From NCBI GenBank assembly GCA_023053545.1, contig JAKZAN010000005.1, positions 13,082,001 through 13,146,000 on the forward strand: 64,000 bases of DNA, written 5' to 3'. This DNA is from Lepidurus packardi. Taxonomy: Eukaryota; Arthropoda; Branchiopoda; Notostraca; Triopsidae. The notes under the pieces are model-generated. The model worked only from the letters and a program-made list of their open reading frames with translations, did no database searches and had not been told where the DNA came from. Below, in pieces: positions 5,999 through 64,000 of the stretch. The position numbers and the translations under genes were made by a program. Every line of letters starts with the position of its first letter. Positions within the stretch are counted from its first letter, which is position 1.

Positions 5999-7256
5999 AT
6001 GAACGTGGTACTTTTACATGCGGCTCTCTTAGTTTTGGGCTGTGGAGAGCTTCTTAGCGACTATGGGGTTGAGGCTTTGTGGAACGCCTTCGTTACGAGT
6101 CGGAATTACCAGGATGTCCGACTGACGACAGAGGACGCTTATATTGCTTCGCGACAGGTTTTGAAAGGTAAACTTAGCCTATTAAGTTACTTCAGCCATG
6201 ACTGCATGGGGCGTTCGTTGTCCCCAAGCGAAAGGGTTTAGCTTTCTATGAGGTAAGTAACGAACAAATGTTTTGTAGGGATGACTGTTCAGACGGCCAC
6301 ACTAGCTTGCGTTCGGTCATGTGCCTTAGTTCGAACTTGTGAGGCCTTCAGTCTCTACCAAACCAAAGATACTTACGTCTGCGAGATGCTCTCGGATAAC
6401 TATTGCCTGGACAGAGGCACCAAAGTCATCGTGAGCCAGAAAGGGAGTTACGTCTGGGACAAGATAAGGAACGTTCCGATCCAGTCGTGCTTTGACCAAA
6501 AATTTAAGAACGTGACAAATATCCCTTGCGAAAGCATGCGCCCAGGCTGTCTGGGTAACTGGCCGAATTGTACTAGTTGTACCCGTACTTGTGTAGACTG
6601 CTCCAAGCGCTACTATCCCTATACAGGTAAAAACGCTGACTTGAAATTGAATGATTTGCTTGATGCCGATTACTTTGTCGTGCGACACGTACCCAGGCTA
6701 TAAAAATTGCACACTGTGGCCTGACGGTGATGGTCCGAGTTCGGTACCCATTAATGGCCGATGCCTGGACGACCTGACTGTTATCATGAAACGGAAACTC
6801 AGTCCGACTACGGGTCAACTGACGCTAGACTACTGGATGCCCTTCCAGGACATCAATCGTCTCTGCAACTTGAAGATCTACTCGATTGTGTGGTTTAGTT
6901 TCTTCACTGCAGCTGAGGTGGGCTATTATGCCGAGTACAAAAACATTCACATTGACAGCAATGGGTCCTTCGTGGACATGAGCTTGACTTCGGTGTATTA
7001 TATACCCCACGGGGACTTTTTCAAGCTCACGAGTTTGACTCCCAAGGATCTCAAGTTTGTCACGGTGACGGATGACATTTACGGGTGTGGGTCGTTTTGG
7101 CTCGTAGATGCGAAGAATGCTACGTACTGCCCAGGTGGTAATATTAAAATGTTTGGTACTCCTAAGGTGAACGGCAGCAAAGTTTTACAAACGGGTATGA
7201 AATACAATGGAGTAGAATACTATGGAGTAGAAATAGCCCTAAGTACACACTGGTGA
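5999..7256 (+). CDS. Secreted PAN-like cysteine-rich family protein, copy A
   Basis: Exons 5999-6167, 6279-6626 and 6697-7256; both introns are phase 1; 358 residues. This copy serves as the family reference. Exon 1 gives a signal peptide plus a short conserved segment (LWNAFVTSRNY). Exon 2 is a cysteine module beginning CxxxCxxxxxCxAFxxY and continuing to VCEML.DNxC, which resembles a PAN/Apple fold, followed by RPGCLGNWPNCTSCTRTC. Exon 3 starts near NCTLWPDGDG, has LDYWMPFQDINR in the middle and ends with DDIYGCGSFWL and NATYCPGG. Several N-x-S/T sites suggest glycosylation. There is no transmembrane segment after the signal, so the product is probably extracellular. I do not recognise the C-terminal domain and assign no function. 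A possible AATAAA signal sits at 7295-7300. Confidence 0.85.
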
Positions 7257-8489
7257 ACTCTAGCGTGCACTGCTTAAATTTCTCCATCGTTGGAAATAAA
7301 AAAATGCTTTAACTGTATTTGCAGTGAGTTTGGAATGCCTTGGAGTCTCTAGCATTGTAAATATTCTTGCGTACTTAAAACACCCTGATGGCGTGTACAA
7401 TAGGAAAGTTTATGGTACTGATGAAGGACGAGTTTGTAACAACAAGTGAAATATGAAATCTATGAAATAAAAGAAATTGAGTGAATATGGAACAAGAATT
7501 ACTTGCAAGTACTGAGTTGAATTTAATACAATTTAACTTCCGAATCAAGACTTGAACTGTTTACTTTTAAAGGGGTTTGCAAAGTTACTTCAAACTTTTT
7601 TCCAAATAAGCAAAGTTTACAATAGTTTACTATAATATATATAAACTAAATAACTATAGTTTAAATAAATTAAAATAAAACAATATCCGCACTCACATAA
7701 CGCTCCTTTCCCAAATCGTAAATTTGATCTTTGGGATTAAGTTATTTGAAATTAAGTTATTGACTGTCATTGTAAAGCATGTAACTTACTGGGTACTTGC
7801 TGCTGAAGCAGTTGCAATGGAACTTTTTGTACAGTTGTCTAGCTCTATTCTCCTTTTTGCCAACTTGACCTCCATACAAGAAACACGTCATGTTTTTCAA
7901 TATACCTATGAACTGCAACAATAACTTTTTGGTAATACCAGTGGGGCAAACTTTGCGACCAGGAACGCTATCGACCTCACGGACAATAAGTAAAAGGGAA
8001 TTTCAGCATAAGTTATAAAATTATAAAGTTATAACTTTAAGCAGGACACCTAATATTCTAAAAATTCAAGTCGTATGTACTTACCATCGTTCCGTACTGT
8101 ACTGTCTTGTGTTTTATTTAAGCTCCTTACTCCTGTTTTTGTTACATTTATGTCTCTTATAACCCATTTCCAAAATTCGCGTTTTTAAACGTTAGCGTTT
8201 GAAGCTTTGAACGTAGCAATAGAGCAATGGTATTGATTCCAGCTTGAAGGTGACACTAATGTTAATACCGACAATGAGAAATGCCATGCTGGCGAGGAGA
8301 TCTTTTTGGTTTCTCTGAATGGAGTACCAAGAGCGAGAGAGTTGAAACCTGAGGTTCTTGAACAAAAGCAATATCGTTCCAAAAACGGGGTGTCCCTGGA
8401 TACAGCTAAATCATTGATTTTGCAAAATTTACATTATTGCTACTTGGACTAAGTTTCCGCAGTGTGGTACCGGAAATTTAGCTGGGAAC
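7257..8489. other. Gap between family copies A and B
   Basis: About 1.2 kb, AT-rich between 7600 and 7700. Apart from the polyadenylation signal of copy A I see no supported gene; the short ORFs on both strands match nothing in the family. Confidence 0.5.
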
Positions 8490-9754
8490 ATGAATGTGCT
8501 GTTCCGGTCAAGCCTATTCTGCTGGTATTTGATAAGCATTAGCCATTATGATGTTTGGGGTGAGAAAGCTGGCTGGAGCAGTTTTGTTACTAGTAAATAT
8601 TATGCCAATTCGCGACTGGTGACCGAGAACGGCAGTATATTCACTCCAAGCTATACCTCAAAAGGTAACAAATCTTTCCTATCAAGGGAATTTACAATTA
8701 AAACGGATTTTATTAACCATTTTTATAGTCATGTCCCATATTTCGGCAAGGATGAACTGTGGTGTGTCTTGTGCTTTAAACGAAAGCTGTCGGGCATTCA
8801 ATTTGTATGAGATTGATGACTCATACGTCTGCGAGCTACTGCCCGACAACTTATGCTCAAACGAAACCGTTAGAGCGCTGGTGAGACAAACAGGAAGCTT
8901 CCTATGGGATAAAGTAAACCAAGGAACGCAACAGTCTTGTTTTGAGAGCCACATACTGGGTGGTGGGAGCTCGAACGGAAATGGGAGCAGCAGTGGCGCC
9001 ACTTCAGCCAGTACAAGCACTACAGCGCCATTGATACCTTGCCAGAGTTTACAGCCAGGATGCTTGGGAAACTGGCCCAATTGTTCCAGCTGTATCCAAA
9101 CTTGTATGGACTGCTATAATCGATACAATTACTCTGGTACCTTCGCAAACTCCCAATGTTAAGACGTAATAGCAATCTTATTTAGGGCTAAAAGCATGCA
9201 TGTTGTGGCCGGATGGTTTCGGCCCAACTTCCAAACCAATGGCCGCCTACTGTATTGACAACGTACACCTTCTTGTGAGGCGAAGAGTTACCGGTAGTGA
9301 CGGCGTATATTACCTGCTAGATTACAGAATGCCCTTTGGAGATCTAAATCGCATTTCGCGGCTCAAGCAATACCCACGACTCAACTTCTCTTTCACAGCG
9401 GCATCTATGGGTGGTACCAACTATTCTGCTATATATAAACACTCGCTTATTACAGCCAACGGGACGCTGATGAACCTAACCTTGTCTTCGGCACCGCTCT
9501 TGGATTTTTTGACCGTTGGCGATGCATCGACACGGGCAGATTTTCCTTTCGTGACGGTTAGCAGTGACCTCTATTACTGCGGCTCATTCTGGCTTCTTGA
9601 TTCTGCCAACGCCACCTATTGTCCAGGGGGAAGTATCGGAGCGTTTGGGACCCTCGCATATAATAGGAAAAAACTATTACGTACCGGTATTCGCTATTCT
9701 AACCAATTTGATCTAGATTATTTCAGTACTTTTGAATTAACTTTAGTCCCATAG
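8490..9754 (+). CDS. Secreted PAN-like family protein, copy B (with Ser/Gly/Thr linker)
   Basis: Exons 8490-8664, 8729-9136 and 9186-9754; 383 residues; both introns phase 1. The signal peptide starts MNVLFRSSLFCWYL. The cysteine module has the full cysteine set (NESCRAFNLY, CELLPDNLC, QQSCFE, GCLGNWPNCSSC, CMDC). Exon 2 is about 60 nt longer than in most copies because a low-complexity Ser/Gly/Thr/Asn stretch (around 8960-9030) is inserted between the Cys of SCFE and the Cys of IPCQ. This could be a flexible, O-glycosylated linker. The C-terminal domain ends YYCGSFWL then NATYCPGG. A remnant of a very similar 3' end lies near 11.6 kb. Possible AATAAA at 9877-9882. Confidence 0.85.
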
Positions 9755-10234
9755 CAGTTCCTTTAGTCCCTTGATTCAATTATACCGCGATAAGCTTTCT
9801 GATAAACGTTGCTATGCTTTTAATTCATATATCCTCTTGTGCTGTGAATAACTCAAAGTACTGGAACTGTACCTCTAATAAAAATATGGAACATCAGGTA
9901 TAATATCCCATCCTCGCTCAGGGTTCAGGCGAAATTGAAAACTTTCGTTCAAACGACAATAACGAGTCCGATCTTCGTTTCGTGACAGGAAGTACAACGT
10001 TTCCCAATACAGTGAGCGAGCGTATAAGCTTGTCGAGTTTAATGGAACGAAAAAGCACTTGACACTCACAGGATCAATTAATAGCAGGGGAGGTGGATCA
10101 CGCAAGGCAGGGGAGCTTCGGTATCGCTAAAGACGATTCGTCGAGGACATCAATACGGGTATACAGATAGTACTTCTGAGTTCTTGCCTCATATTACTGC
10201 AGTGGAGTCGAGAGGGTACCCTCGGTCAGCGAAC
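9755..10234. other. Gap between copies B and C
   Basis: About 480 bp holding the 3' UTR of copy B and the upstream region of copy C. The last 230 bp align by eye with the region upstream of copy D (for example the shared ATCACGCAAGGCAGGGGA), so the promoter was duplicated with the gene. Confidence 0.55.
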
Positions 10235-11459
10235 ATGCTACATTGTCTCTCTCCAATCATTTGGTGGTACGGAGTGTTGGCCCTAAGTGTCAACCATTAC
10301 GTTACACCTGCTTCATGGATTTCTTTCGCAGCCAGCAGTAATTACACAGGGCTAAGAACAGTAATCGACCCGAATGACTACTACTTTAGTCCACGCAATA
10401 TTTCTCAAGGTGAGTTTCCTTTCCTTAACATTTCCTTGCTGAGGATTTCTTCCAAAAGATCTGAATCGTGTTCAATAGAAATGTCCCTGACTGCGGCCAG
10501 AATGGATTGCAGCCAGTCTTGTGCAGTGGAAGAGGCTTGCCATGCGTTCAACTTCTACCAAACTGAAGGTTACTACGTCTGCGAGATGCTACCAGACAAT
10601 TTATGCAGAAATAAAGTCAACAAAAGCGTTGTCAACCTTAGCGGCAGTAACACATGGGATAAGTTAAAGAATGGACCAAAGGTAGCTTGCCTGGACCAGA
10701 TTTTCAGCAACCGGACCGCTATCGCTTGCGAAACCTTGCGGCCAGGATGTTTGGGAACCTGGCCGAACTGTTCCAAGTGCATCAAGACCTGCATCGAGTG
10801 CTACCAGCGGTACGCCTACACCGGTAAAAGAAATAGTACTTGGAAATTACGGCACATATAGATAGACCTTGACTAAAGGTATACCGTTCCATTTTATTCC
10901 GCATTAAGGCTACAGAAACTGTACGCTCTGGCTCGATGGTGATGACCCATCCTTGTTGCCCATCTTCAGCTTGTGCTATAGTAACACGCACACTTTGATC
11001 AAAAGACAATTCAGCCTGACCCTCAACAAATTTACGCAAAATTATAGATTGTCCTTTCAAAATATTCATCGTGTTTTTAGCCTGAAGAAATACTCGCAAC
11101 TGAAATTTACCTTTGTGGGCCGTTATGGTTACGTGTACAACGCTTTATATAAGATCTCGTCCATCGACGCTGATGGGACGTTGAGGAATTTGACGTACTC
11201 TTCAGGACTCTTGGACATTTTCAAAATGAAAGGCTTGACGCTAAAATCGATACCTTTTGTTACAGTCGTCAGTGATGTCTACGGCTGCGGCTCGTTCTGG
11301 CTCATCGCAACTAGCAATGCTACGTACTGTCCTGGCGGGTACACTAAGATCTTCGGTACGCTTGATCTTAAACATAATCCTATTGTCACGGGACTCCACT
11401 TCTCGGCCGGGTATTCTACTATTATTTTTGTTAGCGCCGAAATAAGCCTAGTTCCTTAA
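10235..11459 (+). CDS. Secreted PAN-like family protein, copy C
   Basis: Exons 10235-10409, 10479-10823 and 10909-11459; 356 residues. I chose the ATG at 10235 (MLHCLSPIIWWYG), not the in-frame upstream codon at 10184, because it aligns with the start of copy D and leaves a proper signal peptide. Exon 2 is exactly 345 nt, the commonest length in the family. The aromatic VCEMLPDNLC block and GCLGTWPNC are intact. In the C-terminal domain the usual WPDGD reads WLDGD. The end has DVYGCGSFWL and NATYCPGG. It is most similar to copy D, with which it forms a duplicated pair. Confidence 0.85.
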
Positions 11460-11564
11460 CGTAAAGCTTGACATTGTCCTGTTTTCGATCCATGCATTAT
11501 TGCTTTGGTATATCATTTTTCCGTAATTTTGTTATTGCTGTTTTGGTATTCTAACAAAATAACA

Positions 11565-11757
11565 CGTACTGGTATCCGCTATTCTCGGTACTTGTCTCGT
11601 TTTGCTCCAAATCGTTTGAGTACTCCTGAGTTAACTTTAACCCCATAAGATAAGTTATTGGTTCAATTAGATGTGCTTTGCGATGTATAAGGTGGCTAGG
11701 CTTTCAATTCATATATGCTCTTGTGTTGCGAATATAACTCAAAGTATTGGAAGACTT
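11565..11757 (+). pseudogene. Relic of the 3' end of a copy-B-like family gene
   Basis: Reading from 11565 gives RTGIRYS, then STPELTLTP and a stop at 11646-11648. This parallels the end of copy B (RTGIRYS, then STFELTLVP and stop). The similarity continues past the stop into the 3' UTR (TTCAATTCATATAT, CTCTTGTG, ACTCAAAGTA) to about 11757. Everything upstream of the last 27 or so codons is missing. This is the scar of a deleted tandem copy. Confidence 0.75.
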
Positions 11758-12931
11758 GTTCAGCACTACAAAGGATTGTTAACTGCTCATCAATACTTAA
11801 CGCGACAAGATAAAAACGAAATAATCGAATCCTTGGAAATACAGTATTGTGATGCCAAGGATTTGTTAACATTGACTTACTTTCACGTACATTCAGCATT
11901 CACGTACTAAAGGATTGCAAGAATATTTCTTCTACAATGTTTTATCAGTATGCACTGGATGTGCGACTTTGATTTAGTTTCTAAATGAAGCTAAGCCGGA
12001 ATTGCACGTCATACGAAAAACTACTAATAGCAATTTCAACATCAAATCCATGTTCCGAATCGATGGCCCCGTGCTGACATCGAGTGATTCTGTCCACAGA
12101 CCAATTTGAAACCTAGAAGGGGTGACTTAAATTATGAACTTGTGGGCGTCATACTAGTTTGACCTCAATTTCTCCAGCAGAAAGTACGTAAAGTAGTGTA
12201 CAAATTCCTCTAAACCACCTTTAGACAGTTTTCCAATGCTCGTAAAAGTTTTCCGATCCAAACCCAGCGTGGCGCTACACAGGTGCACAAGCTTGTAGCA
12301 ATATGTCAGGTTATTATTATGTATTATTATTAATATGCCAGGGGATTATATATATTAGCTAGTATTATTGGATTTGAGTTTTATGGGTTTGACCACAGAA
12401 GTAGTCTTACGAAAACCATTCCAAGTAATAGTGGGCAATATTGTGAAATAGCGTAGTGTTTACCGTCAATACTGCCCTACAAGGAAGTCTCCAAACGAAG
12501 TAATGAGCCAACCAACTAACCCCTTTCAAAGCTGAAGGTTAGTTACGAACAGATGGTGAATTTGAATACTCAAATGACACTTGGTCTACTTTCCTGGTCC
12601 TGGAAAAGCCTGGAAGAAACTTTCAGCTTTCGAGAACTGAACTACTTCTATGCAAAGTTTAGTTCGTGTATCGCTTGTGTGAGGTATTTACTTTTATCTT
12701 TCTATAACCCACTACACTACAGACGTAAACAGGAAGTGGCCCCAACACACGAGCTAAAGGTTACCTCTAGAGCCCTCGACGGTTTAGCTAAAGGATACTT
12801 CTAGCGCCCGTAACGCTTGAATGAAAAGCTCTCAAAGCTGGTCTCAAAGTACTCACAGGACCAGTTTGTAGCAGAGTTGATCACGCAAGGCAGGGGAACT
12901 TTTGGTGTTTGTTAAGGGGTCGTTCGTCGAG

Positions 12932-12937
12932 TATATA
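12932..12937 (+). promoter_or_regulatory. Candidate TATA box of copy D
   Basis: TATATA within GAGTATATAAACAGG, about 80 bp before the copy D ATG. Position and sequence suit a core promoter; the start site is not determined. Confidence 0.4.
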
Positions 12938-13018
12938 AACAGGGCTGGGGAGACTCTACTTCTGAGTGCTGGACTCGTATTACCACAGTGCGGTAGCGGG
13001 TAAGCTCGCTCAGCGAAT

Positions 13019-14257
13019 ATGATACGTTGTCTATCAACCATGATTTGGTGGTACGGAGTATTGGCCATAAGTATCAACCATTACGTTACGTCCGCTGCAT
13101 GGACTTATTTTGCAGCCAGCAGTAATTACACAGATTTAAGAACAATAACAGACCCGAACCACTTTACTCCACGATACATTCCTAAAGGTGAGTTGTCATT
13201 CCTTACATTTCTTTGCGGTATTTCTACGTGTTCCCTGAGGCATTTCTTCGAAAGATCTTGACTAAGATTCGTGTTCGAAAGATATGTCTCATATTGCGGC
13301 CAGAATGGGTTGTAGCCAGTCTTGTGTTGTGGACGAAGCTTGCCAAGCGTTCAATTTCTACGAAACTGAAGGTTACTACGTCTGCGAGATGCTACCAGAC
13401 AATTTCTGCCGAAACAAAGTCAACAAGAGCATTGTCAACCTTAGCGGCAGTAACACATGGGATAAGTTCAAGAACAGAACACGGGAAGCTTGCCTGGACC
13501 AGATATTCAGCAACGGGACCACTATCGCTTGCCAAACGGTGCGACCAGGCTGTTTGGGGAACTGGCCGAACTGTTTCAACTGCACAAAAACGTGTATCGA
13601 GTGGAGCCAGCGGTACGGCTACGCAGGTAAAAGAAATCGTACTGGGAACTTACGGCAAATATAGATCCTAAAACTTACGCATACCGTACTATTTTATTTC
13701 ATAAAGGCTTCACAAACTGTACTCTCTGGCCAGACGGTGATGACCCAACATCGGTGCCAATCTTAAGCTTGTGCTTTAACCAGATGCATACTGTGCTCAA
13801 AAGACAATTCGACCTGACCCTCAAGAAATTTACGCAAGATTACAGAATGTCGTTTCCAAACATAAATCGTGTTTTTAGCCTTAAGCAATACCCGCAAATT
13901 CAATTCATCTTTATCGACTCCTATGGTACATTGGAGTACGCCTTATACAGTCTCTCGTCCATCGAAGCTGATGGGACGTTGAGGAATTTGAGCTTCATTG
14001 CGGGACGCAATGATATATTCAAAACGTATCCTTTAAAGCTAGCCTCGGCACCTTTTATAACAGTCTCCAATGATGTCTACGGCTGCGGCTCATTCTGGCT
14101 CATTGATCCTAACAATGCTACGTACTGTCCTGGCGGGTCCACTCAGATGTTTGGTACGCCCAATGTAACCCTTGATCCCATAGTTACGGGAATACGCCAA
14201 CCGGGCGTGAGTTCCACACTGATTACTGTTAGTGCCGAAATAAGACTCTATGTTTAA
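13019..14257 (+). CDS. Secreted PAN-like family protein, copy D (Cys to Trp in the last PAN cysteine)
   Basis: Exons 13019-13187, 13282-13626 and 13707-14257; 354 residues; phases 1 and 1. Signal peptide MIRCLSTMIWWYGVLAI. The PAN-like exon is 345 nt. At its end the conserved TCxxC reads TCIEW: the last cysteine of the module is Trp, unlike the other copies, so one disulfide may be missing or rearranged. The C-terminal domain is standard: NCTLWPDGDDP, DYRMSFPNINR, DVYGCGSFWL, NATYCPGG. The closest relative is copy C. Confidence 0.85.
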
Positions 14258-15377
14258 AGTGAAGCCTATCCTATCCATGATTCATGTTTTCATCTCTCCT
14301 TGCAAATACATTTAGTCAGGTTTGAAGTGAACTACTAGCCTTCTTAGGTAATAGTGTGTTTAAATTCAGGGTTGACTTAACGTGCTTCAAGTATGGGAAT
14401 TATTCTCTTCAGTTATACGACTTGATAAGGGAAGCTAGCTAATTAATTATGAAGTTAACTAAGAAAAAAACTTGAAAGTAAGAGGGTCACTTCAAACCAG
14501 GGGTCCACATACCCCAGTCATAACGCAAGGCTCGTAAGAAACTTGGAGGAGAGTTTTACGACCTAAGAGTAACGCCCTACAAGTGGGTTCACCTTCGATT
14601 ACGAGCAACTGGTAGGGGAACGTCGCTACAGACGGATTTGCAGCCATATTACTGCACAGAAATCATTAGCAACGAGACCCATATCGACTATTGGGGAGAG
14701 AAGACACTTAAGATAGACGCCTTGAATTGATTCTAGTTAAGGACATCAACAAGACACAGAAATTCAAAGAAATATGACAGAATTGTCGCAGATTATTGCT
14801 AGGAATTACTCGGATTTTTCCGAGACCACAACTTCACTAACTATTACAAAGACAGAAGGTTTCGTAAATGAAATAAATTAGATGTTGACTTTCTTTTGGC
14901 TCAAATCAAGTCAATTTGAAATCCTAGGCTGGATATAAAATAAGCGCATGTGGAGGGGTTGCAAAGAGGATTGGTTGAATACCATACAGCCCTTCCAAAG
15001 CTTAGACAGTAGATGCATAATCACACGAACGGAGCATAACTACCAATTTGCACAGACTGCACAGTTTAGATTAACAGAATAAGACTAGGAACTTAAGTAA
15101 GAGAAATTCGCCTTAAATTACTTACATTTCTGCTATATAGCAGATAGTAAATACGTTCTGTTGCAAGGAACGCAAAATTTGTAGACAGTAAACAAAGTAG
15201 AGAACTTATTGTTCTCGGGTAGAACAATGGCCTGTATAAAAAGCAAAGCGAGCAGTAATCGATATAGAAGAAAACGTGCAAAGTTCTATCGCCGCAGTTC
15301 TAAACCCCACGAACAAGTATTAGAATGGCCGCTTCGAGACTAATCCACAGTGTTGTACACGATTTAGAACAAGGAAC
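14258..15377. other. Gap between copies D and E
   Basis: About 1.1 kb. A TATAAA at 15235-15240 lies about 140 bp before the copy E ATG and may be its core promoter. I see no other supported feature. Confidence 0.45.
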
Positions 15378-16626
15378 ATGAATGTGTTCTCCATAACAAC
15401 TCTGCTTTTCCTGTACTCAAAAGACATTCAAAATGGTGTGTACGGTGCGAAAGCTGTATGGACCGCCCTAGCTACCAGTAATCTCTACGCGAACTACCGG
15501 CTGGCGACAGAGGATGACACTTACTTTGAACAGCGCTACATTTCCAAAAGTAATACCTCTTCCAAGCTTCTCAGATTCAAAAGTAAGACTGTCTGCGTAG
15601 CAATGCCCCAGATTTGGGCCAGGATGGGTTGTGCTCAGCCGTGCGTTGCCGATCCAAACTGCCGTGCCTTCAGCTTTTACGAAACTGACGCGTTCTACGT
15701 CTGCGACTTGGTATCCGACAATTACTGCTCGGACCAAATGGGCAAAGTGCTGATAAAGCAGCCAGGCAGCTTTGTGTGGGACAAAATGGCTAAAGGTTCC
15801 ACCCTGACTTGCTTTGAAGCACTCGTCAAGAAAGGGTTACCGATACCTTGCGAAAGTATTCGGCCGCGATGTTTGGGGAACTGGCCCAATTGCACCCAAT
15901 GCGTTCGAACTTGCTATGAATGCTACCTCCGCTACCCAAAGCCTGGTAAAGCATACAAAATGTCGCATGCTTAAGCTACCCCCATATGGCATTCCAATTA
16001 TCCTCACGTTTTGTGTCATATTGTTTATATTACATCCCAGTTATCCTGACTTTTCCTGTTCAGGTCGGTCGGTTTGTACGGTATGGCCGGACGGAGACGA
16101 CGCTTCGACTTCAATACCGCTTATTAGCAAATGCTACTACTACACCCAGACTGTGATGAACCGGAAAGTCAATGCGACTTCCGGCCAAGTATTGCTGGAT
16201 TACCGAATGTCCTTCCTGGATATAAACCGGATAGAACGCCTGAACCAATATATCTATTTTAAGTTAACTTTCTGGCATATCACTAATGTTCCATATTATG
16301 CTACGTATAAGATAGGTGCTATCGAACTCAATGGTACCTTGACGAATACGACCTTTTATGCTGGTATTGATGTCTTGAAAACAGGATATTTAGTCCCCAA
16401 ACAGGTCCCTTTCGTTACGGTTACGGATGATATCTATGGATGCGGCTCTTTCTGGCTGGTAAACCCTCAGAATGCTACTTACTGTCCAGGTGGGAGTGTT
16501 CGAATGTTCGGCACTCCCATTGTGAATGGTACCCGGGTTATAAGTACGGGTATGCGTTATGACGATGTTTACTCTGCATATATTTACGCTGAAGTGGAAG
16601 TATCGCTCTCTAATATTCCAGCTTAA
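15378..16626 (+). CDS. Secreted PAN-like family protein, copy E
   Basis: Exons 15378-15549, 15601-15945 and 16064-16626; 359 residues. The first intron is only 51 nt (15550-15600), contains no stop and keeps the frame, so an unspliced form would add 17 residues. I treat it as an intron because GT, AG, phase 1 and position match the other copies. Signal peptide MNVFSITTLLFLYS. PAN-like block with CRAFSFYETDAFYVCDL, DNYC, LTCFE, CLGNWPNC. C-terminal domain with VCTVWPDGDD, DDIYGCGSFWL, NATYCPGG. In the RPGC motif the glycine is Arg (RPRC). Copies E and F are a close pair. Confidence 0.85.
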
Positions 16627-21877: not shown

Positions 21878-21985
21878 AGTATAGTTGGCTTGACTTGTCA
21901 GATTAACTTTGAACAATATTTTTTGCTAGACTTGGTCCAGTTAACCTCTCTTTGGTATGCTAGACAGTACAGCAGCTGTCCGGTG

Positions 21986-46983: not shown

Positions 46984-48980
<1,997 letters not shown>

Positions 48981-49004
48981 ATATGGCAAAATTTCTTTAT
49001 AACC

Positions 49005-52351: not shown

Positions 52352-55300
52352 TTATTTGATTTTAGCATGCGAATGGGATTTCGCACCTAGAGCTAAATGT
52401 TGTACTAAAGCCTCGGCGCAAGGATCCCTACCCCGGAACAGCCTAAAAGACTCGCTAGCGTGACAACTTCCTCCTTGGGATAACCACGTTTCACGGAATC
52501 TGCGAGAAATTCAAGAAAATTTAAACCAAATCAATGAGTTATTAAAACTCAGAAAAAATGTTTAAAAAACAGTAGCCTACATAGTATAAGTGAATCTTTC
52601 GTATTTTAAAAGACAAACTAAGAGCATTTTCGACATTTACCGTTGTCCAATTTTGGACACAGACGACCGGTCTTGAATATCAGCTTCTTGGAAGGCGCCA
52701 AAAACGTCTGTGGCAATTAAATGGGACCAGAAATGAGCATAGTACGACGCACCCCATTCGCCGCTCATTATATCGGCAAAACTGCAAGGATGAGCGTCTG
52801 TTTTGCTTAACGGAAAGGGGAAGAACCGTGGCCATAGTCGCTTCATCAGGTCCACCCAGAATTCCTTACTATTAAAATGAAAAGGCAAAAATTATAATTA
52901 AATTACTACTAAAACGAAAAGGCAAAAATTACACTTAAAAGGCCTAAAAAACTAGTTAATTATGATTACCCTGCGTGGATTTCGAGATCGAGAGAAGACA
53001 GATACAGTTGTTGGACTAAATCGTAGCCGGCCAGGTGTACGGAAGCTTGGGTTAAGTGATCGAACGTTTCTTGGGGCAACGAATGTCCGTTTTCGAAATG
53101 CGAGCTCACTTTCTGGACCGTTTCCCAATCTGTGAGCCAGCATTGCAGGAAATGGGAAGACACGCCTACCGCATCCCATTCCAGGTTGTTTAAACCTGCG
53201 ATTTCGCTGTAAGGCGCTTCAGACAACAAATGTTGAAGGGCGTGGCCAAACTAAAGAAGAAGGAATGAAACAAAGTTAATTTATATGAATTTTTAAATAA
53301 ATTCTTAACACAAGTTAAGAATTTGTTTAATAATAATTAGTTCTTACTTTGCCAAACAGCAATTTGACGTCATCAAAAGATAAAAGGGCCGGGATTCCGT
53401 GTAACGGTTGGGGAAAATTAAACGCTAGCGTAGCCAATGGCAGTACGCCTTGCTTATGTGAGCGGTTTCGGCAGCCAACCATCCAAGCCGATGTCTCTTT
53501 TTCGTACATTTTCTCGCCAGGTCTGCAAATTACAAGAAAATTGAAAAGAATGTTCATTGAAAAGAATAAGAAGAATTTGAAAAACTCTTATTACCGTAAA
53601 TAAGGGTCTAGGTAGAAATGAGCTAAAACGCGACCAGATTGATCGCTAATCCGGTATAACTGTACATTTGCGGCCCAAACTGAACCCTCGATTTCCTCGA
53701 TGACAATACCGAATAGTTCATTGGCCAAGTTAAAAAGGCCTTCCAAGACTTTGGGAAAGGGAAAATATTCCCTTAATTCGCCTTCTTCATAACTAGAAAT
53801 TCAACATAAATATGAACATGTAAATATTACTTGAATAATTTTGCAAACTCACTTGAAGACGGTTTTCTTTTGCTTCCTACGCCAATAAGGAACGTCCCAG
53901 GCTTGTAAAGTCCCCTCGAATCCTCTTTCCTGGGCGAAACTCTGCAACGATGCCAATTCGCGATCTTGCGCACCTTTGGCCGTCTCTAAAAGCGCGTCAA
54001 TCATACTCCTCACGTTTTCCACACTGCCTGCCATTTTCGTTTCCATCGACATGTGCGCGTAGGATTGATAGCCTAGCAATTTCGCTTGATCTCGGCGCTG
54101 GTACCGGATTTCCTCCATATGAAGACTGTTGTTTATCTCCTTTTCTAAAGCGGATGACGCTCGGATGCGATTGGCCATCCACGCATTCCAGCGCAGATCC
54201 GAGTCGGGGCAATACTCGAGGAACCTTGGCAGGATACTTGGATGTAGGCTTACTTTCCAAGGTCCACGACTCGGATGGGAACTATCGACCGCCATTGCTC
54301 TGAGCAAATCGGACGGAAAATCGCGCATAATTAGCGGATCGGTTATAATATGCCCAAACCGCTTGGTAGACTCCTAGAAACGATCGACAATCATTCTAGT
54401 TAGTCTAAATTTGCTGGAAATGAATTCAATGATACAGAGTCGAAACTCGAATGAAAGAATTTGGGGTTTAAAAATGAAAAATAATGGCAAATTACGTCAA
54501 TTTTGGCCCGGAAGGTTTTGCGTTCTTCATTCATCTTTTTCAGACACTTTTGGTAGTGATTTAGGGCGCTTTCGGGTAGCTCCAAACCATTGAGACGCCC
54601 TTCCAATACGAATTTCTTGACTAAACGTGTCTCGGTTTGCTTCAGCTTGGAATCTGGGCTTAACCAGCTCTAATGAATAGGTTTGAATTACCCTAAAGAA
54701 TGAAATTTGGCCTTCTGGATAAGGAAGAGTTACTTTGCAAGCTTCGTAGATGGGTTTGCTCTGGAATTTCTGCGAACGAGATTTGCGAGCGCGGTTGTGG
54801 ATGAGTTGGTAAGTTTTAGGAGGCATTTTGCTGGATTGGACGACGTATAAGGTCTTGGCGGTGCCCCAGGCGCAGTCCAAAGGGACAGAAACTTGCTCCA
54901 ATCGATCCATAACTGTTTCAAACCCCAGTTTATGGTCAGGGCCTAAGCAAAAATAGGAAAAGCGTTAACGTTGGATTTTATTAAAGATTTTTTAGGGTGT
55001 TACTCACTGGATAAATTCTCTTCGAGTTTCCACACGCAAGTTTCGTGTTCTAATGATAGTTTTCCTACACCACTGAAACATTGTTCGGGAGTTAATGTGT
55101 CAAATTCGGGGAGTTTTTCAGTTTGAAGGATTTGGTTTGTGGCTGCAGTGTCTGTTGGCACTTCTGGAATCCTGATAAGAGATTATAAAGTAATTTAAGT
55201 TTCATAAAAATATCGATTTGTCATTAATTATACGAGAACTCGGTGATGAATATCGTATTACACGAACGACAAATTAAAGTTAAAATACAATAATGAACCA

Positions 55301-55390
55301 TACTTACAAAACTATGTACGAAGTTCGGATGGCTGTGTTAAACCATGGGTTTCGGCTTAAAGTTAAGGGTGTTCTGAAAAGGGCAGCCAT
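52352..55390 (-). CDS. M3-family oligopeptidase A-like protein, predicted inactive (pseudoenzyme), mitochondrial-type N-terminus
   Basis: Ten exons on the minus strand: 55308-55390, 55008-55171, 54734-54942, 54496-54669, 53853-54373, 53595-53792, 53348-53522, 52970-53250, 52641-52868, 52352-52499; 726 residues, all phases consistent. The N-terminus MAALFRTPLTLSRNPWF resembles a mitochondrial presequence. The M3 fold is clear and closest to bacterial oligopeptidase A (PrlC): LGYQSYAHMSMETKMA, LQAWDVPYWRRKQKK, HFYLDPYLRPGEK, FNFPQPLHGIPAL, AGLNNLEWDAV, SFADIMSGEWGASYYAHFWS, RLFRGRDP. The zinc site is not intact. Where family enzymes have LFHEFGH, this gene has LFGKFGH (residues 505-511): the first His and catalytic Glu are Gly and Lys. 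The third ligand, 26 residues after the remaining His, is Gly537 (WDAVG instead of WDAVE). The frame and splice sites are otherwise undamaged. Confidence 0.85.
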
Positions 55391-56503: not shown

Positions 56504-57708
56504 ATGAAGTTCATCTTTTGGGTGACAGTACCGTTGTATTGGCTATGGGCGGGTACCCAAGAGTGTGAGGCTGACACTCTGTGGACCCCCTTTGCTAGCA
56601 GTTCGCATTACTTCAACTTTCGAGTGATGTTCGATCCAAAAGACATAACATTCCCTCCAAAATACATTTCTAAAGGTACAATAATGCAGTAATACACAAA
56701 ATAGCACCTTAATGATAAGTTAATGTGGTTAGAAGTATCTGCGCTTGTCGCCAGGATGGATTGTAGCAATTCCTGTGCGTCAAACCAGTCTTGCCAAGCC
56801 TTTAATTTCTACGAACAGGAAAATTCTTATGTCTGCGAATTACTGCCCGAGAATTTCTGCGCAAATCAAACAAGAAAAGCATTGATAGTCTCCCAAGGAA
56901 GTTCCATATGGGATAAACTAAGCCCTGGAAGGCAGACATCTTGCTTTGAGTCAACACTACGATCACTGACAGTTATTCCATGTGAATTTCTGCGACCTGG
57001 ATGCCTCGGAACGTGGCCTGATTGCTTTAATTGCACCAAAACGTGCCTAGATTGTTCGGCTCGTGCAGCTACAAGTAAATCCTATACTTATTTCATTACA
57101 ATTAGCACAGTATTTTTAATTTTATTATGTTACCAATTGGATCAGTTTGTACCTTGTGGCCAGATGGAGATTTACGAGATTCGGTTCCTATTTTTGGTCA
57201 GTGCAGTGGTTTGTCCACTTTCTTATTTCGGCGACGACTCAATTACACTACCGGGAACATTACCCTGGATTATCGAATGTCTTTTGGGGATATTAACCGC
57301 TTGTACTCGTTGGGAGTGTATTCCATGCTCCGGTTTCTCTTCAAAAATCAAGCTAGCCATGATTTCTACTCCAATTACGATAATTGGTTCATCGATGCAA
57401 ACGGAACTTTGTCAAATATAACGTTTCATAGTTCATTAGCAACTCTCTTAAGCTATAGTCGCCCTGGTGATATTTTTCATCTTAATGGACATGCGTTAGG
57501 TCCTACTCCTTTTATTACTGTCATGGAGGATATTTACGGATGCGGGTCATTTTGGCTGTTGGAACCTAATAACGCCACCTATTGTCCGGGCGGGGAGTTT
57601 AGAATGTTGGGCACTTTTAGACCGCAAGTCAACAGCACAGGCATACGCTATCCTGGTGCTCCAGCTACTGAAATTTACGTTGTCGCGAGTTTGCTACTTG
57701 TCAATTGA
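56504..57708 (+). CDS. Secreted PAN-like family protein, copy L
   Basis: Exons 56504-56675, 56733-57074 and 57146-57708; 358 residues; phases 1 and 1. I chose the ATG at 56504 (MKFIFWVTVPLYWLWAG) over the in-frame one at 56483 because other family starts follow the same GGAACATGAA context and the signal peptide begins there. PAN-like part complete (SCQAFNFYEQENSYVCELL, NFC, TSCFE, GCLGTWPDCFNC, CLDC), but the usual RYxYxG after it reads ARAATS. C-terminal domain with CTLWPDGDL, LDYRMSFGDINR, DIYGCGSFWL and NATYCPGG. Exon 2 happens to be open past its donor for over 100 codons; splicing there is required to reach the conserved C-terminal frame. Confidence 0.83.
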
Positions 57709-58496
57709 ATCCAATACGACTCTTAATCAATATATCATAATCTTTAGATACGAATACATCAAAGCTTGCAAAGAGTTTTTGTATGCTTTTCCTTTTGCAC
57801 CGTATAGATACACGCTTGTATGGATAATATGGATAATACAGAAAATAGAAGAAAAAGTTAACTTTCTGTGTTTTACTGTTCTAAAAGAAAAACCTTATGT
57901 TCTAAAAGAAATCTCTTCACAAAATGTAATTTCTAGTAATTGTATAATTTTAACTGGGTAAACTGGATAAGTGTAAAGATTCCGCAACTGGAGCAAGGTT
58001 GGAATGCGAATTAACATTTGAATTCAATGAACCAGGAAGTTATTTAAAGCGTGGTTTGAACTTGCACGTAGTTCACTACACGTGTGTCGTAGTACTCGCA
58101 TGGTAGTTCACGCACTGGTTAATGGCGGATTGTAGAAGCTATAAACAACAAAGCTGATTCTGTCCGAAGCAATTCGCTTGTATAGCCTGTGCAAAGTGCA
58201 GGTACTAGCGTTCATAGTCGACCATTAACATAACAATACCTCCCATCAACCCAGGATGTTTATATTATATTTACTATAGTTTAAAAAAAGCCTTTTATAA
58301 GCTAAGCTGCACACACAAAAGCCGGGTTAAGAACAGGATTAAGTGCTTCCCTAATGATATACGGTATGGTACTACGATCTACGCCTTTGCCCTCCGTTGA
58401 CCTCCACTGATCAAAAAGGTTCTTGTCCTTTAGTTTTTCTTTCATGTTTCGTACAGCCAGAAAAGTCAGTACTCCAATAGACCCGGAAGCAGAAAC
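57709..58496. other. Gap between copies L and M; left part of the tandem duplication
   Basis: From about 57984 the sequence recurs at about 61198 (GCAACTGGAGCAAGGTTGG and onward), marking the left end of a 3.2-kb duplication. A TTTATAA lies at 58293-58299. No gene. Confidence 0.55.
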
Positions 58497-59857
58497 ATGG
58501 ATTTCTTTCGAGGGATGGGAGTTTTAGTACTGTTCTTTCGTATTGGTTTAGTCACTGGACACGGTTACTGGAGTATCTTAGTGTCAGGTCAATTTTACAA
58601 AGATTTTAAGCTCGCCGTTCTGGGTAATCCTTTCCCTTCTTTACGCATTTCTACAGGTAAGACGCTTTCTATACAACTTAATTGTAAAGTTAGAAAAATT
58701 CCTTTTTTTAATGAACATCAGATTTTAATTAATTACTGCGAGTGAATCTTTGAAGGATTCGGAGATTTCCAAATTTTATTCATTATTTGTGTCTTCATTT
58801 CTATTTATTTCTTTATTGTTGATTACGGTAAGTTTTCGGGATTGTAGCAAGGTTGGAATGCGGGAGAGTCTGCGGCAGTAATGCGGCTTGCCAGGGCTTC
58901 AACGTATACTATAATGTCACCTCTTTTGTCTGCGAACGGTTATCCACCAATCTGCGGTTAAATCAAAGTCAAATTGCGTTCGTATCCCAGCCAGGAGGCT
59001 TCGTTTGGGAGAAATTAGCCGGAGGCGCGGCTCTTCCGTTCATTGACCAAACCCTGAATGGTCTAGCCTCCCGTAATTACTGCGAAACCATCCGGCCTGG
59101 ATGTACCGGCCTTTGGCCTGGCTGTAGTAACTGCGTGCAAAGCTGTATTGACTGCCAGAATCGTTACAAGTACACTGGTAAGTATTCTCTAGCGAGAAGT
59201 GCCTATTTAAAGAAGAAATATCTTATCTGACCGGCCGAAATTCAAATATTTAGAATTAATACTTCCCAATTTGAAGGTCTTTTCACGTGTACCATGTGGC
59301 CGGGACCAGCTGGACCGGGCAATACTCCTATTGTCACCACTTGCTACGATCAATTAACCCATTTGATACGAAGAAATGTAAAATTGTCCAACGGACAAGT
59401 TACGGATCATCACATCTTGCCTTTCCGCGACATGAACCGTTTGTGCCGTCTGAACGTGTACAAACTAATGCAGTTCGCCTTTTTCACTATGAGTGCTCAC
59501 GGGTGGTACCAAGCTCTCTACTCAAACCCGTACATTGAAGAGAACGGTACTCTGACTGGTTTGACCTTCTTATCAGCTAATGACTGGCCAGGAGGCGATG
59601 GATTAGCCTTGGGTACCAATGCACTCACTCCCGCCCCTTTTGTTGTGGTCCACGACGATCGGTACCACTGCGGGTCACTTTGGTTGTTCAAAAAGGGAAA
59701 CGCCACCTACTGCCCCGGAGGAGGCGTTAGCTTCTTCGGTACCCCCCAATTTAATACCACGACTGGTCAAATGGTTGATACAGGTATTCACTGGCCATTA
59801 GCCACTACGAATAAACACGTTCTCTATCGCATGTACCTGTCTTTACTCAACAAGTGA
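58497..59857 (+). CDS. Secreted PAN-like family protein, copy M (divergent subfamily)
   Basis: Exons 58497-58656, 58833-59177 and 59277-59857; 361 residues. Signal peptide MDFFRGMGVLVLFFRIGLV. I placed the exon 2 acceptor at 58831-58832, which gives the family-standard 345-nt exon and VARLECGRVC; an acceptor 15 nt downstream is also in frame. This subfamily lacks two cysteines found elsewhere: DNxC is TNLR and the Cys before FE/LD is Pro-Phe (LPFIDQ). The last domain is also divergent: TCTMWPGPAG, HHILPFRDMNRL, DRYHCGSLWLF, NATYCPGG. It is nearly identical to copy N. Confidence 0.83.
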
Positions 59858-60373
59858 ATACTCCCGTTCGCACTTACCCAGCACTTCTGATTTTGGGTTG
59901 GAATATAATTATCCCAAACTTATCTAAGTAGTAAACACCTCGATGTATGGCAAGGAACTCAACTTACACGTACTTTACTTAAATTGCGGATTTTTCTTAG
60001 GTTATTAGAATTATAAAGAGTTACAATTTCCTTGTATCAGTACCTGTAACAAGGAATAGACTGTGATTGGTGATTCAAAACTTTCCTACACTACACAATC
60101 CCGCATTCCAAATCAATTTTGGTTCAGTGACCGGTATCGATCATCAAATATACCTCCTAAAGTCACGGTTCTAGACAAAAGTGGCAATAAATCGTGAAGC
60201 TTACTATCCGATACATTCAATATTCCCCGGTGCACCCCGTGACGTGGACTACAGAGGTCGAAAGCCAAGCCCAGAAATTGACATTTATTTAGGGTGTCCA
60301 GCTTATAGTAGCATTTAGCAAACCGATTGGGAAAACGCTTTTCCAGTGTTACTGGGAAGACCCTAACGGAAAC
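59858..60373. other. Gap between copies M and O
   Basis: About 515 bp, matched almost base for base by 63052-63521 in the second duplication unit apart from a 40-bp indel near 59960. No gene. Confidence 0.5.
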
Positions 60374-60988
60374 ATGAACTTCAATGCTTTACTAGTACTT
60401 TTGTGCTGGATTTCCGAAAGAGGGAGAGAGTGTGAGGCTGGTGCTTCATGGACCAGCTTTGCAACCACTCAACTTTACTCCGGATTGAGAATGATGACCG
60501 CCCCGAATGGTATTGCTCTCCCCGTGCGGTTGATTAGCAAAGGTATGACTAATGTATACCTCCTTAAATTTCTTTCGTGCGGTTGATTAGTAAAGTATCA
60601 ATAATTAATACCTCCTTAAATTTCTTAAAAAAAGTATAACATTGTGACTTTGTTGTGACCGTGTGACCCTGTGATTGTGACCCTGTCAAACATGATCGTC
60701 AATAGGTCCTATGCAAATGCAGGGGAATTGAAACCTAATGACTTTTTCAAACTCAATGGCCAGGCGTTAGGATCAATTCCTTTTATAACTGTCACGGAAG
60801 ATATCTATGGATGCGGATCATTTTGGCTGCTCGATCCCAGTAACCAAAAGTATTGCCCGGGAGGGATAATGAGGATGTTGGGTACTCTGAACGTTTCTAC
60901 CGAAGTACCATCAGGAATCGGATACCCCGGAAATCTGCCAGTCAACGAGGTTTTCAAGGTCGCCAGTATTTGGCTTCAGAATCAGTGA
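60374..60988 (+). pseudogene. Family copy O lacking the whole PAN-like exon
   Basis: Exon 1 is intact (60374-60542: MNFNALLVLLCWISERGREC to LISKG). The PAN-like exon and the first half of the C-terminal exon are absent; an imperfect TGTGACCCTG run (60640-60690) sits at the deletion point. The remaining tail has DIYGCGSFWL, but NATYCPGG is NQKYCPGG. An acceptor-like AG at 60721-60722 would join exon 1 in frame to 60723-60988, giving a 144-residue protein (LISKG then ELKPNDFFKLNGQALG), so a short product cannot be excluded. The sister copy P still has its PAN exon. Confidence 0.65.
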
Positions 60989-61693
60989 AACCCTTAAGGT
61001 AACCCAAAAAATTTACTGTAAGCAGTGCACTGGAGTCTCGTGTTCCCACAATTGTAGCAACGTTGGCTTGATCACTAACAAACACATCATTTAACAAAAA
61101 CATGTTATTCGCAAAAGTGATTATGGTCCCTATAGATTTTAAATCCTAATCCCTCACCCTCTCTAGAAACCTGACGTTTATTAACCTGAAGCAAGGAGCA
61201 ACTGGAGCAAGGTTGGAATGCGAATTAACATTTCAATTAAATGAAGCAGGAAGTTATTTAAAGCGTGGTTTGAACTTGCACGTAGTTCAATACACGTGTG
61301 TCGTAGTACTCGCACTGTAGTTCACGCTGGTTAGAGGCGGATTGTAGAAGCTATAAACAACAAAGCTGTCAGGAGCAATTCGCTTATACAGACTGCAAAG
61401 TGCAGCTACTAGCGTTCATAGTCGACCATTAACATACCAATACCTCCCATCAACCCAGGATATTATATTTACTATAGTTAAAAAAAGCCTTTTATAAGCT
61501 AAGCTGTACATACAAAAGGCGAGTTAGGAACAGGATTAAGTGCTTCCCTCATGATATACGTTATGGTACTACGATCTACGCCTTTGCCCTCCATTGGCCT
61601 CCACTGGTCAAAAAGGTTCTTGTCCTTCAGTTTTGCTTTCGTGTTTCGTACAGCCACAAAAAGCAGTACTCCAATAGACTCGGAAGCAGAAAC
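60989..61693. other. Gap between O and N; second unit boundary
   Basis: About 700 bp. From about 61198 it repeats the region upstream of copy M. No gene. Confidence 0.5.
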
Positions 61694-63051
61694 ATGGATT
61701 TCTTTCGAGGAATGGGAGTTTTACTACTGTTCTTTCGTATTGGTTTGGTCACTGGAAACGGTTACTGGAGCATCGTAGTGTCAGGTCAATTTTATAAAGA
61801 TTTTAAGCTCGCCGTTCTGGGTAATCCTTTCCCTTCTTTACGCATTTCTACAGGTAAGACGCTTTCTATACAACTTAATCGTAAAGTTAGAAAAATTCCT
61901 CTTTTAACGAACATCTGAATTTAATTAATTACTGCGAGGGAATTTTTGAAGGATTCGGAGATTTCCAACTTATTAATTATTTGTATCTTCATTTCTATTT
62001 ATTTCTTTGTTGTTGCGTACGGAAAGTTTCCGAGGTTGTAGCAAGGTTGGAATGCGGGAGAGTCTGCGGTAGTAATGCGGCTTGCCAGGGCTTCAACGTA
62101 TACTATAAGGTCACCTCTTTTGTCTGCGAACGGTTACCCACCAATCTGCGGTTAAATCAAAGTCAAATTGCGTTCGTATCCCAGCCAGGAGGCTTCGTTT
62201 GGGAGAAATTAGCCGGAGGCGTGGCTCTTCCGTTCATTGACCAAACCCTGAAGGGCCTAGCTTCCGGTAATTACTGCGAAACCATCCGGCCTGGATGTAC
62301 CGGCCATTGGCCTGACTGTACTAACTGCGTGCAAAGCTGTATTGACTGCCAGAATCGTTACAAGTACACTGGTAAGTATTCGCTAGCGAGAAGTGCCTAT
62401 TTAAAGAAGATATATCTTATCTAACCGGCCGAAATTCAAATATTTAGAATTAAAACTTCCCAACTTGCAGGTCTTTTCACGTGTACCCTGTGGCCGGGAC
62501 CAGCTGGACCGGGCAATACTCCTATTGTCACCACTTGCTACGATCAATTAACCCATTTGATACGAAGAACGGTAAGCTTGTCCAACGGACAAGTTACGGA
62601 TCATCACATCTTGCCTTTCCGCGACATGAACCGTTTATGCCGGCTGAACGTGTACAAACTAATGCAGTTCGCCTTTTTCACTACGAGTCTTCACGGGTGG
62701 TACCAATCCCTCTACTCAAACCCGTACATTGAAGAGAACGGTACTCTGACTGGTCTGACCTTCTTATCAGCTAATGATGGGCCAGGAGGCGATGGGTTAG
62801 CCTTGGGTACCAATGCACTCACTCCCGCCCCTTTTGTTGTGGTCCATGACGATCGGTACCACTGCGGGTCACTTTGGTTGTTCAAAAATGGAAACGCCAC
62901 CTACTGCCCCGGAGGAGGCATTAGCTTCTTCGGTACCCCCCAATTTAATACCACGACTGGTCAAATGGTTGATACAGGTATTCACTGGCCTTTAGCCACT
63001 ACGAATAAAGACGTTCTCTATCGCATGGATCTGGCTTTACTCAACCAGTGA
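61694..63051 (+). CDS. Secreted PAN-like family protein, copy N (twin of M)
   Basis: Exons 61694-61853, 62027-62371 and 62471-63051; 361 residues, the three exon lengths identical to those of copy M. The exon 2 acceptor at 62025-62026 gives VSEVVARLECGRVC, matching copy L (EVSALVARMDC), which supports the acceptor choice in both twins. Differences from M are a few substitutions (for example NVTSF to KVTSF, which removes an N-glycosylation site, and GHWPDC for GLWPGC). The same two cysteines are missing as in M. Confidence 0.85.
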
Positions 63052-63521
63052 ATACAACTTCTACTCCCGCAGCACTTCTGATTTTGGGTTGGAATATAAT
63101 TATCCCAAACTTATCTAAGTAGTAAACACCTCGATGTATTTGCGGATTTTTCTTAGGTTATTAGAATTATAAAGAGTTACAATTTCCTTGTATCAGTAGC
63201 TGTAACAAGAAATAGACTGTGATTGGTCATTCAAAACTTTCCTACCCTACACATTCCAAATCAATGTTGTTTCAGTGACCGGTATTGATCATCAAATAAA
63301 CCTCCTAAAGCCACGGTACTAGATATAAGTGGCATTAAATAGTGAGGTTTACTATCCGATATATTCAATAGTCCCCGGTGCACCCCGTGACGTGGACTAC
63401 AGAGGTCCGAAGCCAAGCCCAGAAATTGACATTTATTTAGGGTGTCCAGCTTTTACTAGCATTTAACAAACCGATTGGGAAAACCCTTTTCCAGTGTTAC
63501 CGAGAAATTCCTAACGGAAAC
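63052..63521. other. Gap between copies N and P
   Basis: 470 bp, the duplicate of the M-O spacer. No gene. Confidence 0.5.
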
Positions 63522-64000
63522 ATGAACTTCAATGCTTTAATAGTTCTTTTGTGCTGGATTTCCGAAGGAGGGAGAGCGTGTGCGGCTGATGCATCATGGA
63601 CCAGCTTTGCAACCACTCAACTTTACTCAGGATTGAGAATGATGACCGACCCGAATGATAGTGCTCTCCCCGTGCGGTTGATTAGCAAAGGTATCACTAA
63701 TGTATACCTCCTTAAATTTCTTAAAAAAGTATAACATTGTGACTTTTTTTATAATATCTTTGAAAATTTTGCTAGAGGTAAATCTTATTTGGGCAAGACT
63801 GGAATGTATGTATTCCTGTGAGCACAATCAATCGTGTCAAGCTTTTAATTTCTACGAGAACACTACTGCGTATGTCTGCGAAATGTTGGCCGATAACTTG
63901 TGCGGCAATCAGATCAGGAAAGCGTTCGTAGCCTGGCCAGGTAGTTCGGTGTGGGATAGGATAAGTACTGGCGCGCAGAAATCTTGTTTGGAAACAAGAT
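63522..64000 (+). CDS. Secreted PAN-like family protein, copy P (cut by the right edge)
   Basis: Exon 1 63522-63690 (MNFNALIVLLCWISEGGRAC, signal peptide; LISKG at the junction) and exon 2 from 63776, open at the window end. Exon 2 starts EVNLIWARLECMYSC and keeps the full cysteine set so far (SCQAFNFYENTTAYVCEMLA, DNLC, KSCLE). Exon 1 is almost the same as that of copy O, so P shows what O has lost. The C-terminal domain lies outside the window. Confidence 0.8.

Follow-up and report, generated by a model that had tools for sequence, protein, structure and literature searches.

A tandem family of secreted PAN-domain genes with a candidate fibrinogen-related C-terminal domain in Lepidurus packardi

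The window analysed here is a 64,000-nucleotide stretch of Lepidurus packardi contig JAKZAN010000005.1 (contig C4 in our naming, C4:13082001-13146000), and the genome searched comprises 108.6 Mb in 344 contigs. The window carries part of a large tandem gene family predicted to encode secreted, disulfide-rich glycoproteins with a PAN/Apple module and a C-terminal domain that is probably a divergent fibrinogen-related domain (FReD). Exon profiles place all window copies on the plus strand (nine complete genes, plus a deleted copy and a copy at the window edge), six of them at 5999-19685 and the remaining copies from 56504 onward:

5999..7256, plus strand: gene 1; exons 5999-6167, 6279-6626 and 6697-7256; 358 aa
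8490..9754, plus strand: gene 2; exons 8490-8664, 8729-9136 and 9186-9754; a Gly/Ser/Thr-rich insert is added in exon 2
10235..11459, plus strand: gene 3; exons 10235-10409, 10479-10823 and 10909-11459; 356 aa
13019..14257, plus strand: gene 4; exons 13019-13187, 13282-13626 and 13707-14257; 354 aa
15378..16626, plus strand: gene 5; exons 15378-15549, 15601-15945 and 16064-16626; 359 aa
18489..19685, plus strand: gene 6; exons 18489-18660, 18712-19059 and 19126-19685; 359 aa
56504..57708, plus strand: gene 7; exons 56504-56675, 56733-57074 and 57146-57708
58497..59857, plus strand: gene 8; exons 58497-58656, 58848-59177 and 59277-59857; the cysteine pair corresponding to gene 5 C100-C128 is absent
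60374..60988, plus strand: deleted copy; retains exon 1 and, of exon 3, the C-terminal portion covering profile positions 78-162
61694..63051, plus strand: gene 9; exons 61694-61853, 62042-62371 and 62471-63051
63522..64000, plus strand: edge copy; exon 1 at 63522-63690, exon 2 from 63776

Gene models, family size and growth

The three exon profiles match these copies at E-values of 1e-9 to 8e-59, and beyond them the window yields just three matches at E<=1 (E 0.4-0.62), taken as chance. A DNA pattern for the WPDGD motif occurs 9 times in the window, whereas 100 shuffles average 1.8 and all stay below 9; two of the matches lie off the motif, one at 2084 outside the family and one at 59585 inside copy 8. 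The copies match the initial annotation of this DNA, with the same count of nine complete genes plus a deleted and an edge copy. The deleted copy is missing exon 2 and exon-3 profile positions 1-77, and the edge copy, a 359-aa gene at C4:13145522, extends beyond the window.

In a complete gene, exon 1 encodes the signal peptide and the start of the PAN module, exon 2 the PAN core and a cysteine-rich linker, and exon 3 a C-terminal domain of 165-190 aa. The three-exon structure with phase-1 introns, also described by the initial annotation, holds where introns were read directly (GT-AG, phase 1). Our scripted intron search was limited to phase-1 introns and yielded an intron-2 model for 56 of 59 exon-2/exon-3 pairs. 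Intron 1 of gene 5 is 51 bp long and stop-free, so its retention would keep the frame. In the C2 members and three C4 copies a single open frame spans exons 2 and 3, and the C3 members too match as single frames, so intron 2 appears to have been lost or gained within the family.

With gene 1's exon-3 domain as query, a genome search returned at least 94 matches, of which 79 are near-full and stop-free (at least 120 of 180 positions covered, no stop) and 15 are partial or contain stops. The near-full copies fall on five contigs (C4, 55; C6, 14; C3, 6; C2, 3; C1, 1), and 39 of them form a 157-kb array at C4:13074978-13231700 (38 on the plus strand), nine within the window. The family is thus far larger than the "at least 11 members in two clusters" of the initial annotation. 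A more distant member as query added three full-length, stop-free places (C3 9077137, 1542071 and 2038415) and another member three more (C5:5038782, C3:8381108 and C3:8387142), bringing the near-full C-terminal domains to at least 85 genome-wide (79 plus 6 from the two other queries). The 59 exon-2/exon-3 pairs reduce to 53 distinct full models after removal of three without a model, one frameshifted, one counted twice and one whose exon 1 lies off the analysed stretch; the stop-free state of these models is partly due to how they were constructed.

Several copies depart from the common form. A single copy at C4:9368664 (minus strand) carries an N-terminal extension of about 130 aa rich in coiled-coil-like heptads, possibly an oligomerising coiled coil. 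One defective copy occurs three times at C4:11428000-11457999, within 6-7 kb units that are 95-98% identical, reflecting either a recent segmental duplication or an assembly effect. At C4 13.17-13.21 Mb (e.g. 13177582, 13191459 and 13205407), truncated exon-3 pieces recur between complete genes and start at a near-identical profile position (93-96). TATA-like boxes 60-260 bp upstream were found for 11 of 45 copies vs 11% of random stretches, a weak signal that is not used here.

A tree of the 53 proteins joins the six left-hand window genes in one clade (99/88). In the right-hand group, genes 8 and 9 group with C4:12964617 (100/100) and gene 7 with the edge copy (100/99), making two separate lineages whose nearest relatives lie outside the window. 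Each side therefore grew locally, and the suggestion that one family had been split by insertion is not borne out. Gene 8 and gene 9 are sisters with 93% protein identity, and a tandem duplication of a 3.2-kb two-gene unit pairs gene 8 and the deleted copy with gene 9 and the edge copy at 92-94% identity:

57984..60574, plus strand: duplication unit 1; pieces 57984-59948 and 59984-60574
61198..63722, plus strand: duplication unit 2; pieces 61198-63139 (93.6% identical to unit 1) and 63140-63722 (91.7%)

Across the array, the next neighbour is the closest relative for 11 of 35 copies, vs a mean of 2.0 and a maximum of 9 in 1000 shuffled orders. Pairwise protein identity has a median of 36%. Synonymous divergence (dS) in one neighbour pair is uneven from exon to exon (1.00, 0.49 and 0.05 for exons 1, 2 and 3), and this patchwork suggests gene conversion. 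Nonsynonymous-to-synonymous ratios (pN/pS) pooled over 11 hand-picked pairs are 0.50, 0.35 and 0.54 for exons 1 to 3, showing constraint that is weakest in exons 1 and 3, with no pN/pS >1 overall. Such ratios argue for real genes. Together, the gene models, tree, pN/pS, Pfam matches and duplication analysis support the earlier description of a tandem, secreted, PAN/Apple-bearing family marked by rapid duplication, loss and divergence.

At E<=0.05, Pfam matches PAN_1 (PF00024) in 28 of 53 exon-2 sequences and PAN_4 (PF14295) in 15 of 53. Most exon-2 matches are under the curated cut-off; gene 7 passes that of PAN_1 (22.5 bits vs 21.4). Among eight usable spliced window proteins, one passes the PAN_1 cut-off and six have any PAN_1 match. 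Unlike the Pfam model, the family's module extends into the cysteine-rich linker. Each of sixteen cysteine columns is retained in 48-53 of the 53 proteins. By gene 5 numbering, C100 and C128 are lost jointly in 3 of 3 cases, and C165 and C177 show three joint losses among 5 and 4 losses per column; a C165-C177 pair would tie the linker to the C-terminal domain. A signal peptide is present in the family models by sequence, and the proteins carry 3-13 N-glycosylation sequons each (mean 7.6). The signal peptide and PAN/Apple-like cysteine module of the initial annotation are thus both found.

The C-terminal domain compared with fibrinogen-related domains

The initial annotation could assign the C-terminal domain to no known family. 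This stands for Pfam, where the domain reaches no family in any of the 53 members (12 families each hit a single member, at E 0.013 or worse, with no fibrinogen among them); beyond Pfam, we find a weak but repeatable link to FReDs that falls short of a clear match. FReD-like motifs were first spotted by eye and then tested. With hhalign, a profile of 55 exon-3 sequences was compared with 10-13 FReDs from this genome and PDB, giving P 0.00041 in local mode, 0.00041-0.011 across trimmings and 0.00023-0.0053 with the fuller FReD set. Shuffled-column and block-shuffled profiles never reached the FReD score (0/250 twice; 0/200 twice with the fuller set), reversed controls scored 17.7-19.9 vs 27.9-31.7 for the real profiles, and the PAN exon used as a control gave P 0.33-0.37.

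Four disjoint subsets of the family gave P 0.14, 0.00032, 0.11 and 0.013 on a near-identical diagonal. The best subset (n = 13) aligns over positions 7-165 of 184, above all shuffles, with cysteine on cysteine and GIRW on GIIW. A further profile-profile comparison gave P 0.0013 and a probability of 18%. In HMMER searches with a FReD profile, 14 of 55 members exceed the 99th percentile of a 3300-shuffle background (top score 14.4 bits vs a shuffle maximum of 8.1), and the reciprocal search gives 3 of 13. The top HMMER alignments are gapless and lay DYRMSFxDMNRL on EFWLGNxxIHxLT; hhalign has an 11-residue gap there, and the two registers differ. The four cysteines follow FReD order. The third and fourth are 12-17 residues apart (13 in 36 of 55 members, 12 in 4 of 55), and the same spacing is 12 in all 11 FReDs holding both. 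A regular-expression test of the last-cysteine region is given no weight here on account of its poor design: one pattern hit 50 of 55 family members, the other just 1 of 13 FReDs. Taken together, these comparisons make a FReD the probable identity of the domain.

Several results weigh against this identification and the picture built on it. Fibrinogen_C (PF00147) is absent from the 53 members at E<=1, and a PDB profile search at E<=5 returned no FReD chain, its matches being the plant alpha-1,2-fucosyltransferase FUT1 (E 0.0064) and one dehalogenase (1.6). The genome's 19 PF00147 exon matches (8 or so classic FReD genes) all lie outside the arrays, and a search with the most similar of the genome's FReDs missed the arrays, with one match at E 3.2 near a C6 cluster. 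Under harsher trimming 1/300 and 2/200 shuffles reach the FReD score, vertebrate FReDs alone give P 0.13, and two of the subset values above, P 0.14 and 0.11, belong to the window and middle subsets. A P of 0.001 would not be significant if all families had been searched, and FReD was preselected by eye. Mean HMMER scores are -0.34 for real members vs -1.10 for reversed ones, only the top members standing out, and the first cysteine pair is 15-21 residues apart vs 23-30 in FReDs. Outside the domain, 5 of 53 exon-1 models lack a start codon, and a PDB profile search with window exon 2 found no relative at E<=5.

These points leave room for a lineage-specific new domain unrelated to FReDs, in proteins that would still form a secreted, PAN-bearing recognition or surface family. 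We consider this a possible but less probable reading. It is consistent with the empty Pfam result, with the near absence of PDB sequence relatives save the weak FUT1 match, with the unevenness of the FReD link across subsets, and with searches of viral contigs (33 stretches, with one peptide pattern) and of prokaryote genomes (30 stretches) that confirmed no relative, in collections where none would be expected. Against it, a colinear FReD signal rises repeatedly above shuffles, the cysteine order is the same, strand motifs match and the domain begins at the exon start. Derivation from the middle of a GT37-type fucosyltransferase is far less credible, even though Arabidopsis FUT1 (PDB 5kx6, 5koe, 5kop) heads the PDB search and its segment scores above any FReD comparison in hhalign (P 1e-6, 0/150 shuffles; three of four subsets give P 5e-6 to 3e-5). 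That segment is the best of 177,635 PDB sequences, so that P 1e-6 becomes an expectation of about 0.2. The similarity is confined to columns 44-136 (about 90 columns of one enzyme) and takes in neither cysteine pair nor the domain ends. In one subset P is 0.04, and no fucosyltransferase family appears among the Pfam matches of the 53 members. The segment is presumably an inner piece of a GT-B enzyme. We rejected a FUT1-like origin and take the match as chance, on account of the selection, the restricted columns and the missing cysteine pairs; the episode shows how far chance similarity can reach.

Neighbouring genes and other genome observations

The gap between the two window groups spans 36.8 kb (19686-56503) and contains unrelated genes by Pfam, in line with the roughly 36 kb previously noted:

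38509-39588, plus strand: BACK domain
42633-43103, plus strand: OMP decarboxylase
47294-47698, plus strand: RIO2-type kinase
50976-51371, plus strand: ribosomal protein S2/SA
53849-54373, minus strand: M3 peptidase

Adjoining the left group, a 456-aa open frame at 20555-21925 (minus strand) has a signal-peptide-like start, a Thr/Ser/Val-rich composition and a 12-bp repeat present 26 times (20709-21014) that encodes Asn/Thr/Ser. The frame has no Pfam match, and its product looks like a secreted mucin. A 42-bp satellite occupies window positions 40402-41272 (20.7 copies, 96% matches), and the window holds no tRNA and no Rfam match.

Elsewhere in the genome, at C4:11.903-11.908 Mb and C1:0.706-0.715 Mb, Vitellogenin_N pieces lie just downstream of, and on the same strand as, Cu/Zn superoxide dismutase pieces; a vitellogenin with a superoxide-dismutase-like domain was reportedly described in Daphnia magna by Kato et al. 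in 2004, going by the title. Ten of 13 globin matches fall in five close pairs, and water fleas have two-domain globins. COX1-like pieces with TGA as Trp look arthropod by eye. Taken together, these traits resemble those of a cladoceran-type branchiopod. COX1 pieces are numerous on contigs C1, C2, C4, C5, C6, C21 and C38; they contain in-frame TGA, several of them other stops as well, and appear to be nuclear copies of mitochondrial DNA. Intact, stop-free bacterial-type cox1 frames mark C43, C52 and C214 as apparent bacterial contigs within the assembly.

Proposed function and its alternatives

We propose that the family encodes secreted, disulfide-rich glycoproteins with a divergent FReD and a recognition function, and we put the probability of this explanation as a whole at about 0.5. 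The C-terminal domain would be a compact, very divergent FReD, shortened ahead of the 'EFWLGN' strand and over much of the P region that binds ligand, while retaining both FReD cysteine pairs and the 'G-I-x-W' strand. The array has grown by tandem duplication, with patchwork divergence that points to gene conversion. The proteins may be secreted into haemolymph, gut or onto surfaces as germline-encoded recognition molecules, lectin-like or protein-binding, in which the PAN and FReD modules would bind partners or foreign glycans and the array would provide diversity.

Fibrinogen-like domains serve microbial recognition in many invertebrates, and invertebrate fibrinogen-related proteins (FREPs) offer the nearest parallel. 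Mosquito FREPs are described as recognition proteins whose genes lie in tandem clusters, with 53 in A. gambiae (PMC1242226); Daphnia pulex has 36 (PMC4833078), and in the snail FREP2 forms a complex with a TEP and parasite mucins (PMC2935394). Like mosquito FBN, tachylectin 5A and ficolins, the present family is secreted, with two C-terminal cysteine pairs in the same order and a last pair spaced about 12-13 residues apart in both; tandem clustering it shares with FREP genes. Its C-terminal domain is shorter, at about 165-190 aa vs about 200-240 in FREPs, the region before 'EFWLGN' and the P region being shortened, and it escapes Pfam. By analogy with other invertebrate FREPs, secreted recognition lectins appear the most likely function.

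The ligand would probably differ. The tachylectin 5A funnel is formed by Tyr-210, Tyr-236, Tyr-248 and His-220 (PMC1242226). By alignment register only, the family has Trp (55/55) in the place of Tyr-210 and Pro (55/55) in the place of His-220; the counterparts of Tyr-236 and Tyr-248 fall where divergence prevents alignment, so that 1 of 2 placeable positions is aromatic. The acetyl-group pocket thus appears mostly not kept, which makes a different ligand likely.

Protein or carbohydrate binding has been ascribed to PAN modules, and PAN/Apple joined to a fibrinogen domain is recorded in molluscs, namely B. glabrata FREP1/Bg179, 4 Crassostrea genes and some Lottia FReDs (PMC7588048). These proteins share with the present family secretion and the joining of PAN/Apple to a fibrinogen domain, here putative. 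The mollusc genes are few, with a canonical fibrinogen domain and, in the snail case, an immunoglobulin superfamily (IgSF) loop, whereas the Lepidurus family runs to dozens of genes, shows no IgSF and has a divergent C-terminal domain. The combination is therefore not new; its scale and the divergence of the domain are. Our literature search found nothing on tandem PAN-domain genes in Daphnia and nothing combining a PAN domain with fibrinogen in crustaceans, and the available parts of PMC2685406 and PMC10329263 hold nothing on this family.

The same proteins might instead serve in feeding, reproduction (an egg or sperm coat) or cuticle, their divergence tracking mates, food or habitat. PAN and FReD modules serve many extracellular roles, sequence fixes no site of action, and the putative mucin-like frame beside the left group would suit such uses. 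We rate this option as unlikely. No direct counter-point was found; the available parts of PMC4833078, PMC1242226 and PMC2935394 treat expansions of FReDs in invertebrates mostly as a matter of defence. That the copies are mostly decaying and without function is very improbable. The 15 of 94 partial or interrupted matches, the deleted window copy and the pseudogene present three times at C4 11.43-11.455 Mb speak for decay; set against them are the 79 near-full, stop-free matches, the 16 retained cysteines and the pooled pN/pS of 0.35-0.54.

Crustacean immune-gene surveys count FREPs by the standard fibrinogen model, which gives 36 in D. pulex (PMC4833078). Returning to the recognition family proposed above, if its domain is a FReD, then such counts miss the larger part of the repertoire here (about 8 classic genes vs at least 85 domains); if it is not, an unnamed extracellular domain exists in dozens of copies. 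Water fleas are model hosts for parasite coevolution. It is a speculative and, on balance, doubtful extension that this is a hidden, PAN-fused and Pfam-invisible branch of the FReD superfamily, which would rank among the largest recognition gene families of a branchiopod, with at least 85 germline copies diversified by tandem duplication and gene conversion, and would be a prime candidate for the molecules governing parasite recognition in water fleas. Being large, secreted, diversifying and on a single chromosome, the array lends itself directly to association and expression studies.

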